Part shown: piece after piece, positions 7,235 to 12,077 of the stretch
Layout of the letters: the number at the start of each line of letters is the position of its first letter
Position numbering within the stretch: the stretch's first letter is position 1
Source: Prochlorococcus marinus str. MIT 9215
GTDB taxonomy: Bacteria; Cyanobacteriota; Cyanobacteriia; PCC-6307; Cyanobiaceae
Reading direction: 5' to 3'
NCBI RefSeq assembly: GCF_000018065.1
Contig: NC_009840.1
Location: 1,116,001-1,180,000, forward strand
DNA: 64,000 bases
Position numbers and translations under genes: made by a program
The notes under the pieces: model-generated
Seen by the model: the letters and a program-made list of their open reading frames with translations, nothing else
Database searches by the model: none
What the model was told of the DNA's origin: nothing

Positions 7235-7421
7235 GGTCTTCTGCAGTTAATGAGAATCCCGTTCCCTATTCCCATGTCATGCGTCCAGAGATATAACTTG
7301 GATGAACGTTAATGAATAGTAACACCTTAGAAAAATAAATGCGAGAGTAATTTTTACTAATTTTTTTTCTAAAAAAATTTTTTGAATAAATAGGATAAAT
7401 AAGCTTTGAATATTAGGTAAA

Positions 7422-8600: not shown

Positions 8601-8825
8601 CTAAGGTATACCCATGCATTTTAAATAATTATTATCAGCTAAATCTAGAATTAGGACCCATTCTTCACGAGGTGTTTCTAAAGGGATTTTAAAATCTTTC
8701 TCAAATTTACGAATACATCTTTTTTCTATATTTTCTGGGGAATTATAATATCGTAAAAAAGTTACGCCTAAATAAGATAATGTTGAAAAAATTATAATTA
8801 TCTTAACAATCCCAAAACGATTCAT
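8601..8825 (-). CDS. Membrane-anchored hypothetical protein
   Basis: A 74-residue product, MNRFGIVKIIIIFSTLSYLG..., with one N-terminal helix and a charged C-terminal domain (CIRKFEKDFKIPLETPREEW). The start at 8825 overlaps the stop of the upstream DUF3764 gene as ATGA, the usual sign of translational coupling, and is preferred over a start six bases upstream. The function is unknown. Confidence 0.6.
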   Translation of the reverse strand: MNRFGIVKIIIIFSTLSYLGVTFLRYYNSPENIEKRCIRKFEKDFKIPLETPREEWVLILDLADNNYLKCMGIP

Positions 8826-9097
8826 ATCCAAGATGATTCTTCCATATATGAGAAATTGACTTTGTGAATTTTAATCCATTTACTATTTGCTTTAACAAAC
8901 TTTTGAATATTTGCCTCTGTAGCCTGATTTATACAAATAAACTTTTTAGGATCATCTTTACTTAATCCTCTAAAAAGTGTCTTAATATCAAATTCAGAAT
9001 GTCTTAGATCTGATTCTTTACTATCAAAAATTTTTATCCATTCTTCAAATTTAGTCTCAATATTAAAAGAAATTAGGGTTGTTATTTTCCTTGTCAA
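8822..9097 (-). CDS. DUF3764-family protein
   Basis: A 91-residue soluble protein matching the cyanobacterial DUF3764 pattern: FEEWIKIFDSKESDLRHSEF, then LFRGLSKDDPKKFICINQA. The start is a TTG at 9097 giving MTRKITTL; no ATG is available upstream. It is the first gene of a compact minus-strand group (9097 to 8377) with an ATGA overlap to the next gene. The biochemical role is unknown. Confidence 0.72.
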   Translation of the reverse strand: MTRKITTLISFNIETKFEEWIKIFDSKESDLRHSEFDIKTLFRGLSKDDPKKFICINQATEANIQKFVKANSKWIKIHKVNFSYMEESSWI

Positions 9098-9292: not shown

Positions 9293-9706
9293 TTAATTAA
9301 AAGGTGTAGTGTTATTCGTAGGAGCTATTAACAATATTTCAAAAACTATCCCAGTTAGGGCAATTGGTAAAACCCAAATACCTATAAATCTATGATCAAA
9401 AAATCTCAAATGATCTTTACCCTTGAAAACACTTCTCAAAGCAGTAAATAGTGTTTCAGGTTGCTTATATGAAGGACCATTTACAGAGGGAGAATATGGT
9501 TTAACAAACGCGGATGAGGAAGAAAACTTTGCAAACTTTCTAATGAAATAAATTGGCAAAACCCATATAGCAACAAATCTTCCTCCTAACCATTGCCTTG
9601 CATTAGGAAGAGCATACTCTTTGATAGATTTATTCTCTGGCATCCCAGATTCTAAATCTCTATAAATATTTTCTAATGTATCTTTTTTATTTAATTCATT
9701 AATCAT
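9293..9706 (-). CDS. Membrane protein with an internally repeated RF(V/I)xIWVLPI motif
   Basis: A 137-residue protein with two hydrophobic segments sharing a motif: GGRFVAIWVLPIYFI near residues 41-55 and DHRFIGIWVLPIALTGI near residues 103-119. They are separated by a polar linker rich in Ser, Pro and Lys. The repeat implies internal duplication of a one-helix unit. The R-x-x-A/G-I-x-x-L-P pattern is faintly like the helix start of cytochrome b559 subunits, but with Trp where they have His; this resemblance is speculative. It lies in the cluster of tiny membrane proteins at 9.3-11.5 kb. Confidence 0.6.
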   Translation of the reverse strand: MINELNKKDTLENIYRDLESGMPENKSIKEYALPNARQWLGGRFVAIWVLPIYFIRKFAKFSSSSAFVKPYSPSVNGPSYKQPETLFTALRSVFKGKDHLRFFDHRFIGIWVLPIALTGIVFEILLIAPTNNTTPFN

Positions 9707-9819
9707 TAAATTAAGCCGTTAATGAAGTAAATTCTAATATAATAAATCGTCTAAAAGTTAAATATTTAATAAAAATATTCCTAACTACTAAAATAACTAA
9801 AACGTAGTTAAGAATATTT

Positions 9820-10117
9820 TCGTTGGCTAGGTTCATAAAGACGGGTTGTAAACCGTTGCAGATGCGCCAAATATCTACATATTCTTTATAAATAAAAAAC
9901 TATTTTTTTAAAAGTAAATAATATACAAATGCATAGATATTTTTTAATTGAAAAAGTTTGTTTTTGATACTGAATTATAACTTTATATTAAATTTTTTCT
10001 AAATAATATTTAAACCTCATTTTCTAAGATTGCAAAAAGAAAATGAGGTTAAAGGGAGGTTCTCATTACAAACCGTACTTATCAAAGCTAGCGGCTAGTA
10101 GATTGCCCTAATATCTA
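9820..10117. repeat. Two similar GC-richer blocks ending in ATATCTAC
   Basis: Block 1 (about 9820-9877) and block 2 (about 10054-10117) each carry an AGGTTC-like start, an AAACCGT core and an AGAT(T)GC(G/C)C-(T)AAATATCTAC-like end. Block 1 folds as ACGGGTT-GTA-AACCGT with a bulge. Neither encodes a protein. They could be diverged copies of a small RNA or regulatory element. Confidence 0.35.
10013..10050 (-). terminator. Perfect 13-bp inverted repeat, probable terminator
   Basis: AACCTCATTTTCT and its exact reverse complement flank a 12-base loop. Read on the minus strand it is followed by a T-rich tail, so it most likely ends the minus-strand transcript of the small membrane-protein genes from 10831 down to 10202. 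Confidence 0.5.
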
Positions 10118-10201
10118 CTTTTCTATTTATATAATGATTTTCTTAATTTAGAAAGATCAATTTTATACAAATATGTGTTTAATATTTTATGTGATTATTA
10201 T

Positions 10202-10300
10202 TTAGGAAAAGCTTATTAGCGCACTTACTATTTTTATTGAAAGAAGAAAAAAAGCATAAAGAGAAACTGCAAAAAATAAATACTGTTCTATGGGAATCAT
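10202..10300 (-). CDS. 32-residue membrane microprotein
   Basis: MIPIEQYLFFAVSLYAFFLL followed by a short hydrophobic tail; essentially one transmembrane helix. The first 20 residues recall the N-terminus of NuoK/NdhE (MIPLxHxLxLAAxLFxxGL), but such a short hydrophobic match can arise by chance. It is 35 bases downstream of the PsbY-like gene on the same strand, then a strong hairpin follows. Confidence 0.5.
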   Translation of the reverse strand: MIPIEQYLFFAVSLYAFFLLSIKIVSALISFS

Positions 10301-10335
10301 AATAATTTAATGAATAAAAGATACATTAATTCAAT

Positions 10336-10521
10336 TTAATTTTTTGTTAAAAAGATATTTTCCAAATTATAACTTTGTTCTATTGATTCATTTTTTAAAC
10401 TCATTTTTTTTGGCAAATTATCATCAGTCAAGTTAAATGCACCCCATTTTCTCAACCAATATAAGGTATAGAAAAAAGCAATTATGAAGGGTGCGCCTAC
10501 AATTAAATATCTTATATCCAT
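10336..10521 (-). CDS. PsbY-like small membrane protein, tandem paralogue
   Basis: A 61-residue product from the ATG at 10521: MDIRYLIVGAPFIIAFFYTL, then WLRKWGAFNLTDDNLPKK and a polar tail. The N-terminal half aligns by eye with the upstream gene's [11 protein letters not shown]...[12 protein letters not shown]...LPKK, so the two are tandem duplicates. MDxR-hydrophobic-P is also the opening pattern of PsbY. Unlike its neighbour it lacks the PsbF-like C-terminus. The upstream gene ends 13 bases before this start. Confidence 0.6.
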   Translation of the reverse strand: MDIRYLIVGAPFIIAFFYTLYWLRKWGAFNLTDDNLPKKMSLKNESIEQSYNLENIFLTKN

Positions 10522-10534
10522 CAAAATACCTAAA

Positions 10535-10831
10535 TTAATAAGATTTAAACTGCATTGCCAAAATAGCACCTAAAAAGAAAACCGTAGGAATTCCTAAAGC
10601 GTTTACAGCTGCAGTTCTGACAGTAAATACAGGATAACCTTCTGGGGGTCTTCCAGTAGCAGGAACTAGTGCAGTATCATCCCATACTTGATAATTTTTA
10701 AAAGGTGCCACTCCCTTCTTGGGTAATCCTAGTGGAGTCAATCTAAATACATCCCATCTACCTAACCAAAAAACTGTAAAAATCCAAGAAAATACTATTG
10801 GTGTGATAACAAGTACTACTCTAAAATCCAT
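10535..10831 (-). CDS. Two-helix protein with cytochrome b559 beta (PsbF)-like C-terminus lacking the haem histidine
   Basis: A 98-residue protein. Residues 1-30 ([20 protein letters not shown]...) form a PsbY-like helix. Residues 65-98 read [20 protein letters not shown] then [13 protein letters not shown], matching PsbF (YPIFTVRWxAVHTLAVPxxFFxGAIAAMQF) almost throughout. The axial haem ligand His of PsbF (AVHT) is Asn here (AVNA), so it should not bind haem like true cytochrome b559. It is not psbF itself, which is about 45 residues and lies with psbE. It heads a minus-strand group of three small membrane proteins and is divergent from 11058. Confidence 0.8.
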
Positions 10832-11057
10832 TTCTATAAAAGTAAAAATTAATTTGATAATTATTCTGCCCTTTTTAAATAAATAATTGATTAAATCATT
10901 AACTTATATTTATACAAAAACACTTAATAACATTATTTTTAATCATTAATCACAACTAATTATGATTAATTAATTTTCTTAATGTATATTTTTTTAAATG
11001 AAAATATTTGAATATTTACTTTGATGTAGATTAAATTTAATTATAAATTTTAAAAAT

Positions 11058-11423
11058 ATGGAAACTTTTAGATTTTTACTTTTTGGAATCGCAGGTGTAA
11101 GCGTTGTTTTTTGGGTTGCAGTTATAGCATTGTGGCATACTTATATGTTCCCAAAATTCTTTAATGAAGATAAAGGTTTAAATTCAGTTATCAATCAAGA
11201 AGTAAATGTCTCAACAGAACCCATTTTAGGGAGCTTAGTTAATAGTGAAAATTTTAAAAGTAGGGATAAGTACTCAATGAAAAATTTAGTTGTGGCCGAC
11301 TTTTCATCAAGTAATAATTTCACATTAAATAAACTCTACACAACGGTAATGATTGGGGTAACATTTGCAAGTTTTATATTTCTTACTTATGGTTTAAGTA
11401 GCTCTATTACGACTACTAGTTAG
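11058..11423 (+). CDS. Two-helix membrane protein of unknown family
   Basis: A 121-residue protein. An N-terminal helix (METFRFLLFGIAGVSVVFWV...) and a C-terminal helix (about residues 94-114, TTVMIGVTFASFIFLTYGL) flank a polar loop of about 55 residues rich in Asn, Ser and Lys. It is divergently transcribed from the PsbF-like gene across a 226-base AT-rich gap and is directly followed, with no gap, by a 27-residue helix protein. No family is recognised. Confidence 0.6.
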   Translation: METFRFLLFGIAGVSVVFWVAVIALWHTYMFPKFFNEDKGLNSVINQEVNVSTEPILGSLVNSENFKSRDKYSMKNLVVADFSSSNNFTLNKLYTTVMIGVTFASFIFLTYGLSSSITTTS

Positions 11424-11507
11424 ATGGAATCTATATATGTAATTGTTTTCTTAATTTGCTTCGTCTATTTAATTTTCGACTCATTAACAAATACAGGTAT
11501 CAAATAA
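11424..11507 (+). CDS. 27-residue membrane microprotein
   Basis: MESIYVIVFLICFVYLIFDS plus seven residues: a single transmembrane helix. Its ATG immediately follows the TAG of the preceding gene (TAGATG), so translational coupling is likely. The length and layout match low-molecular-weight photosystem or b6f subunits, but no known subunit fits. Confidence 0.5.
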   Translation: MESIYVIVFLICFVYLIFDSLTNTGIK

Positions 11508-11879
11508 GCTTTCTAATGCTTTTCGCCCTTTAATAAAATTTTTCTCCTTATATAAAAGAAAACTAATGTAGTTATTATCATCACCGGTGGGTGAAATGAA
11601 ATTGAATTCAGATATTCATAGTAACTAAAATTTTCCAACTACTTAAAAATAACTTTAAAAACTATATCCTTTTTTCAAATCTCTAATTGAAATAAATAAA
11701 CAATTTCATGTATAAAATGATTTCAAATTCCAACAAGATCAAAATTTTTTACTTAATTCAGATTCACAGATATAAATTCATCTATTTGTTTCTCTTAAAA
11801 TTTAGTCAATGTTTCATCCTAAATAAATATCTTTAAAAGTTGTTTTATAATTTATAAATATATTGTTCAAAGTTATCTA
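11508..11879. other. Intergenic region, nothing recognised
   Basis: A very AT-rich gap between two plus-strand small genes. No ORF above 20 codons with a start, no clear terminator and no RNA motif. Confidence 0.4.
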
Positions 11880-12077
11880 ATGATAAATTCTATTAATTTA
11901 AATCATTTGCCAATTCAGGATTTGGTTGTTTCAGGATTAATAATATTTGTTATATCGACAATTATCGCTAATATTTACAACCCATTATTAGGCATCCTTT
12001 ATGCATTTGGAAATATACTTACACTTACTTTTTTGAGTTGGTTGTACAAAGAAACTTGGAGCGATCCAAGTAAATAA
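11880..12077 (+). CDS. Small two-helix membrane protein
   Basis: A 65-residue product, MINSINLNHLPIQDLVVSGL, with two adjoining hydrophobic segments (about residues 15-34 and 36-56) and a short polar C-terminus, KETWSDPSK. No family is recognised. It stands alone on the plus strand. Confidence 0.5.
   Translation: MINSINLNHLPIQDLVVSGLIIFVISTIIANIYNPLLGILYAFGNILTLTFLSWLYKETWSDPSK

Follow-up and report, generated by a model that had tools for sequence, protein, structure and literature searches.

We analyzed a window of 64,000 nucleotides from the genome of Prochlorococcus marinus str. MIT 9215 (contig NC_009840.1, positions 1,116,001 to 1,180,000 of the forward strand; coordinates below are those of the window), in which a cluster of genes for small membrane proteins surrounds a divergent intergenic region. 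One of these genes, here called YF98 (10535-10831, minus strand), encodes 98 amino acids (aa) and joins a PsbY-like helix (residues ~1-30) to a PsbF helix (~63-95) that carries an asparagine, Asn77, at the heme-ligand position of cytochrome b559. The cluster probably specifies a variant of that part of photosystem II (PSII) where cytochrome b559 and PsbY are located, with the fused chain at its core. In two related genera, as far as gene content can tell, the fused gene seems to have taken the place of both the normal psbF and psbY. In the following, genera are designated by g-numbers, genomes by G-numbers, and loci by L-numbers; these two genera are g4 and g56, and the latter, we assume, is probably the low-light clade I of Prochlorococcus.

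Judged by its sequence, YF98 is a true PsbY-PsbF homologue. Its residues 63-88 match the Pfam family PF00283 (Cytochrom_B559) with 33.1 bits (cut-off 30), and the whole protein reaches 212.2 bits (cut-off 127) with the NCBIfam model NF002720, named "cytochrome b559 subunit beta, long form", in an alignment that covers all 98 positions. Since such a model exists, YF98 is not wholly undescribed. The protein stays below the equivalog cut-off of TIGR01333 (55.0 bits, or 56.5 in the genome scan, for a cut-off of 61.15), as do the other copies of the high-light (HL) group, while fused copies of g56, g4, g11, g34, and others exceed it. A profile search of the PDB with 13 relatives of YF98 matched PsbF chains, to which the helix aligns gap-free; the best match was chain F of 7ymi/7ymm, which has 99 residues and is labelled "Photosystem II protein Y". 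The N-terminal helix (MD.R..LV..PI.FS) aligned to PsbY with an hhalign probability of 97.8, and its own profile found five PDB sequences at E<=1, all of them PsbY chains (best E 0.0048). YF98 had no match to the PsbY family PF06298 above the cut-off of 24 bits, and the fused starts scored 15-18 bits in four genomes. These matches bear out the PsbY and PsbF likenesses pointed out by an initial annotation made from the sequence letters. The fused gene is distinct in its location: it lay outside the psbE-psbL interval in every locus read, and the canonical psbF, if present, follows psbE. Both fusion orders (PsbY-PsbF and PsbF-PsbY) would fit a pair of antiparallel neighbours. The contact of PsbY with PsbE and PsbF in PSII is described in a passage of PMC4823308.

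The axial heme ligands of cytochrome b559 are histidines of PsbE and PsbF (excerpts of PMC4823308 and PMC9214863). When the canonical PsbF segment ..YPIFTVRWLAVHALAIP.. is aligned to the fused helix, which can be done without gaps, the heme-ligand histidine falls on the asparagine. We found asparagine in 156 of 156 fused copies and histidine in 54 of 54 unfused ones, counts that include overlapping stretches and correspond to 97 and 34 distinct sequences, respectively. The tryptophan located one turn before the ligand position is a threonine in all fused copies except those of g14, which retain the tryptophan, and the arginine preceding the ligand position (R72) is invariant in the PsbF half. 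Over 44 diverse fused sequences, 25 columns are invariant.

The genome of MIT 9215 has a normal psbEFLJ operon and a PsbY over the cut-off, in addition to the fused gene. In g4 and g56, the fused gene was the only match over the TIGR01333 cut-off in the genome-wide searches (seven of the seven g56 and two of the two g4 genomes tested). The next match in most of these genomes reached 12.6 bits and lay in an open reading frame (ORF) of 86-88 aa, which in G110 is psbE. The order psbE-psbL-psbJ, devoid of psbF, was observed in all 21 genomes of the two genera in which psbE was found (19 of g56 and two of g4), and the gap between psbE and psbL is 29-34 nt in them, compared with 160-172 nt where psbF is present. 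This count leaves out three genomes in which psbE was not found, G185 and G233 of g56 (96-97% complete) and G060 of g4; G094, G036, and G019 were, for want of psbE, also not counted as losses of psbF. A candidate for an independent loss, G013, was rejected: the fused protein is the sole PsbF/PsbY-like match in this genome, but psbE was not found either and the operon is unassembled.

A similar picture was obtained for psbY. The genome search with PF06298 revealed no stand-alone PsbY in the 13 g56 and the three g4 genomes tested; in G060 the model matched nothing but the beginning of the fused gene, and in G110 it gave 12.8 bits inside an ORF of 276 aa. The same model finds PsbY over the cut-off in 10 of the 10 tested genomes of the window's genus and in most other genomes with a canonical psbF. 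The exceptions are the incomplete G116, G066, and G046, and G052, where a YF-like PsbY reaches 22.5 bits. The latter (L224, contig C1 of G052 near 169077) is a stand-alone PsbY whose helix is closer to the fused N-terminus than to the usual PsbY, and it may be related to the ancestor of the PsbY half of the fusion.

The partner of PsbF also differs in these genera. The 21 PsbE proteins keep the heme-ligand histidine, as do all 64 PsbE stretches read, and have an alanine at position +3 instead of the threonine present in 43 of 43 other stretches, some of which share one genome. The fused proteins of g4 and g56 group together (support 88/80).

The other genes of the cluster are arranged on both sides of the intergenic region between YF98 and tm121 (10832-11057), which presumably acts as a shared promoter region. 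On the minus strand, YF98 is followed by Y61 (10336-10521, with the ATG at 10521 assumed to be its start), a PsbY-like paralogue of 61 aa lacking the PsbF half, by tm32 (10202-10300), a hydrophobic protein of 32 aa, and by dup137 (9293-9706), a membrane protein of 137 aa with two similar RFxxIWVLPI helices. On the plus strand, tm121 (11058-11423) encodes 121 aa with two hydrophobic stretches and an invariant motif of the LWHxYMF type, and is directly followed by tm27 (11424-11507), which encodes 27 hydrophobic aa. The six ORFs of the initial annotation are thus in place. A further gene, hpp41 (11513-11638, minus strand, TTG start), and two conserved non-coding blocks described below had been missed by it; hpp41 encodes a small protein with a segment SFHPPV...F.YIRRK.

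To assess whether these ORFs are genes, we used 80 named Prochlorococcus loci recruited by YF98. The ratio of nonsynonymous to synonymous substitution rates (dN/dS) was 0.08 for YF98 (80 loci), 0.25 for Y61 and 0.23 for tm32 (79 loci each), 0.14 for dup137 (77 loci), 0.15 for tm121 (78 loci), 0.31 for tm27 (74 loci), and 0.16 for hpp41. In-frame stops were absent from YF98 and tm32, and none of the six ORFs had one in more than a single locus, against 21 of 80, 12 of 79, and 55 of 75 loci in three of four control ORFs. The fourth control, antisense to tm121, had a dN/dS of 0.15 and a stop in 1 of 76 loci. Hence, dN/dS alone is no proof, and it is the stops together with the gene order that carry the case. 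The order with tm121 divergent from YF98-Y61-tm32 is kept in 77 of the 80 loci and extends to dup137 in 75. Among the five loci departing from the full order, four simply run into the end of the stretch (two lacking dup137 and two lacking tm121); the only true rearrangement is that of strain HNLC2 (L114), whose tm121 lies at a distance of 3.4 kb and whose stretch contains no dup. Furthermore, of the 75 loci with the whole order, 73 have tm27 adjoining tm121, and hpp41 was found in 73 of the 80. Outside this sample, hpp41 neighbours tm121 or dup in loci from g4, g56, g17, g11, g39, and g33, and the head-to-head arrangement of YF98 and tm121, with ~180-220 bp from start to start, is also found in g4 and g56. 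This confirms that the six ORFs are real genes under purifying selection and with an order kept in other Prochlorococcus, and hpp41 belongs with them.

We then surveyed 300 genomes of the family, in which the count of the fused form is a lower bound. It was found in at least 62 genomes, including 19 of the 24 of the window's genus; the five without it are G017, G095, G152, G202, and G238. Only YF98 and Y61 were lost in G202, and scraps of dup and hpp41 remain in G095. We identified dup in 72 and tm121 in 70 of the 300 genomes, and both together with YF98 in 57. Six genomes have dup alone and four have tm121 alone, two of these at weak E-values. Fisher tests of co-occurrence gave P-values <1e-40 that ignore shared ancestry. 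Better evidence comes from order changes through which the linkage persists: dup follows YF98 in HL, g4, and g56 and precedes it in g39 and g17, G010 has dup on the opposite strand, and in G010 and G039 tm121 is elsewhere and adjoins hpp41. The initial annotation had proposed that its reading would fall if the genes did not co-occur, keep their order, or show purifying selection; we found co-occurrence in 57 of the 62 listed genomes, the full order in 75 of 80 loci, and dN/dS values of 0.08-0.31. A scan of 145 genomes of the class (14 from the same family) gave six full-length fusions among the matches listed, all in the family. Two PsbF-like matches outside the family lie in frames of 102 aa (G369 C94:21920 and G379 C646:7676) and may be other long or fused PsbF. 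A phage origin of YF98 was considered and rejected: none of 28 stretches with the pattern in viral contigs was confirmed, and phage records gave no match at E<=0.01.

Among the partner proteins, dup137 and tm121 matched no family of Pfam, NCBIfam, or PHROGs, and PDB profile searches gave one match at E 0.58 for the former and none for the latter. The duplicated helix that the initial annotation had described in dup137 can be read by eye as RFVAIWVLPI and RFIGIWVLPI; the N-terminus of dup is longer and acidic in low-light relatives. In tm121, the motif of the LWHxYMF type closes the first hydrophobic stretch. Its histidine (His27) is invariant in 12 of 12 aligned sequences, and we speculate that it may bind pigment or heme. 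We also considered dup or tm121 as further PsbE/PsbF-like subunits, as the RFxxIWVLP helices of dup resemble those of b559 to the eye, and rejected this idea, given profile comparison probabilities of only 0.1 and 0.2 and unconvincing PDB searches. For Y61, the similarity to NF002717 and NF002720 is confined to 39-40 positions at their N-terminal end and amounts to ~30 bits, below the cut-off. The likeness of the 32-aa protein to NuoK, also proposed initially, found no support: searches of Pfam, NCBIfam, and PHROGs at E<=1, in which the HMMER filters are weak on 32 residues, left tm32 unmatched. In one genome (G003, L025/L116), an ORF that looks flavodoxin-like by eye lies beside and downstream of tm121, which hints at a link with iron.

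How could the cluster work? In the arrangement that we propose, PsbY comes first in YF98, the linker would be cytoplasmic, PsbF comes second, and the chain could occupy the two adjacent sites next to PsbE. The PsbF helix of the chain is almost intact but for the change of histidine to asparagine and, in nearly all copies, of tryptophan to threonine. In g4 and g56, we infer that the fused protein serves as the PsbF of every PSII, in a dimer with PsbE that would be either an apo-cytochrome b559 or a cytochrome with a five-coordinate heme held by the PsbE histidine alone. In genomes with both versions, including that of the window, YF98 might build an alternative or transient form of PSII, or a state of its assembly or repair, with dup and tm121 (in HL also Y61, tm32, and tm27) as partner membrane subunits or assembly factors of that form. 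A plausible benefit would be the removal of a redox-active heme, which could save iron and leave neither cyclic flow nor oxygen chemistry at this site. A PSII with apo-cytochrome b559 seems feasible because PsbE-His mutants of T. elongatus assemble active PSII in this state (reported in part of PMC9214863). The same source indicates that the b559 potential is changed in Arabidopsis lacking PsbY. Two expression studies may also concern the gene. A transcript of strain MIT9312 annotated as "PsbF-like protein", which we assume without proof to be that of YF98, decreases under plastic leachate, as do those of psbB, J, K, T, and O (passage of PMC6517427). PsbF of strain SS120 rises under azaserine, in a passage of PMC5451487 that does not state which copy. 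In its most specific form, i.e., a replacement of PsbF and PsbY by the fused chain with a heme-less b559 site in g56 and g4, a lineage of abundant marine cyanobacteria that would carry out oxygenic photosynthesis in this state, and a second PSII isoform made of the chain, dup, and tm121 in sister lineages, we give the proposal an even chance.

Several observations weigh against the proposal. Most heme-ligand mutants of Synechocystis and Chlamydomonas accumulated little PSII, according to the same excerpts of PMC9214863. The grouping of the g4 and g56 proteins implies that the loss of psbF and the change in PsbE may be one event, in which case the two genera do not provide independent support. 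As PF06298 is blind to Y61 and to most fused N-termini, a diverged stand-alone PsbY could remain in g4 and g56. YF98 occurs without dup and tm121 in five genomes (G036, G271, G277, G283, and G295), and dup and tm121 occur without YF98 in nine. The AlphaFold model of YF98 has two helices but a mean predicted local distance difference test score (pLDDT) of 65.4, that of dup137 a mean of 58.9, and Foldseek found no match at E<=0.001 with either model. Finally, the arginine retained before the ligand position could mean that heme is still bound.

This last point leads to the alternative that fares best, to which we attach a real but lesser chance: the heme would stay, with the PsbE histidine as one axial ligand and asparagine, water, or a histidine of tm121 as the second, giving a high-spin or re-potentialed cytochrome. 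The PsbE histidine present in all 64 stretches and the invariant R72 are consistent with it, as are the invariant His27 at a helix end of tm121 and the presence of tm121 in 57 of the 62 listed genomes with the fusion. Yet four g34 genomes and G036 carry the fusion without tm121 (all four of g34 also keep the canonical psbF), and the changes from threonine to alanine in PsbE and from tryptophan to threonine in PsbF suggest that the heme face has been freed of its usual constraint. A second alternative concerns the genomes with both versions, where YF98 might not be a subunit of working PSII but a placeholder of assembly or repair that holds the module of PsbE and D2 together without heme until the canonical PsbF and PsbY enter. 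It would suit the situation in the window's genus, where 19 of the 24 genomes have the fusion beside a canonical psbF, as well as the lack of PSII homologues of dup and tm121, as expected for assembly factors, and the report that cytochrome b559 with D2 starts PSII assembly (passage of PMC12661325). However, five of these 24 genomes live without the fusion, and the explanation fails for g4 and g56, where no canonical PsbF was found; overall, we regard it as unlikely. It is highly improbable that YF98 is a functionless paralogue in decay that persists by chance. Its patchy presence, with five genomes of the genus lacking it and remnants of its neighbours in G095, would suit this reading, but the conservation refutes it: dN/dS is 0.08, no stops occur in 80 loci, and 25 columns are invariant. 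In addition, no other PsbF was found in g4 and g56.

Between tm32 and dup137, on the minus strand, lie the two non-coding blocks (9776-9925 and 10001-10125). Most of their 25-bp bins have an identity of 0.87-0.99, with variable flanks, and they are more conserved than the flanking genes. They share a start motif, GTAGATATT, and each ends at its 3' side in a strong hairpin. No Rfam family matched them above the gathering score, and a covariation check found 0 base pairs with changes on both sides. They could be small RNAs or form a structured leader. The surroundings also include a glutamine-II riboswitch aptamer (7250-7311, minus strand; 44.6 bits, gathering score 33) and a DUF3764 protein (8822-9097, minus strand; 87.5 bits) that is adjacent to the cluster in some of the HL loci. 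A hydrophobic ORF of 65 aa (11880-12077, plus strand; dN/dS 0.21) has a match at the DNA level in only 16 of the 80 named loci, and hence neighbours the cluster in some strains only.

The initial annotation had described this region as a locus of photosystem-mimicking proteins and a candidate for an undescribed system, perhaps an accessory complex or assembly factor that contacts a photosystem. Part of this interpretation is supported: the products are small membrane proteins, two of them PsbY-like and one with a PsbF-like end, and their genes travel together. The link with a photosystem is sound for YF98, although "mimicking" and "accessory" understate a true PsbY-PsbF homologue that is the only PsbF found in g4 and g56. 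Likewise, "undescribed" does not apply to YF98, already known to NCBI as the "long form". What appears to be new is the lost heme ligand, which was not visible to the annotation, and the replacement of psbF, for neither of which we found a description in the open-licence papers searched. There is "no consensus" on a physiologically relevant redox role of cytochrome b559 in PSII, in the words of a passage of PMC12661325. The cells of g4 and g56 may run PSII with an altered or heme-less cytochrome b559, and if the heme is indeed missing there, it would be dispensable in nature. Closely related strains with the histidine pair, with both versions, or with only the histidine-less fused version thus look like an experiment made by nature. 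Comparing their PSII would directly test the role of the heme without the laboratory mutants that often destabilise PSII. For dup and tm121, two undescribed families of membrane proteins, these data provide a concrete hypothesis on their partner.

Among known systems, the closest are the NCBI models for the long form of the beta subunit (NF002720 and NF002717), the first of which YF98 fits over its full length; the model name does not reveal that one half of the protein is PsbY, that asparagine occupies the ligand position, or that some genera have the fused gene in place of psbF. PsbF (TIGR01333, PF00283) is homologous to the second helix of YF98, but YF98 lacks the heme-ligand histidine, has an additional helix fused at its N-terminus, and is encoded outside the psbEFLJ operon. 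That N-terminal helix resembles PsbY (PF06298) in profile comparisons, yet stays below the cut-off of this family. Chain F of 7ymi/7ymm unites the same two subunits in one chain of a solved PSII (7ymi being, in an excerpt of PMC12661325, the PSII-Pcb complex of Acaryochloris marina), but in the opposite order, with PsbF at 8-44 and PsbY at 62-84, and the PsbF histidine is present in the alignment. The engineered heme-ligand mutants of Synechocystis, Chlamydomonas, and T. elongatus have also lost one axial histidine. These were made in the laboratory and the apo case concerns PsbE, whereas the change in YF98 is natural, lies on the beta side, and is conserved across genera.

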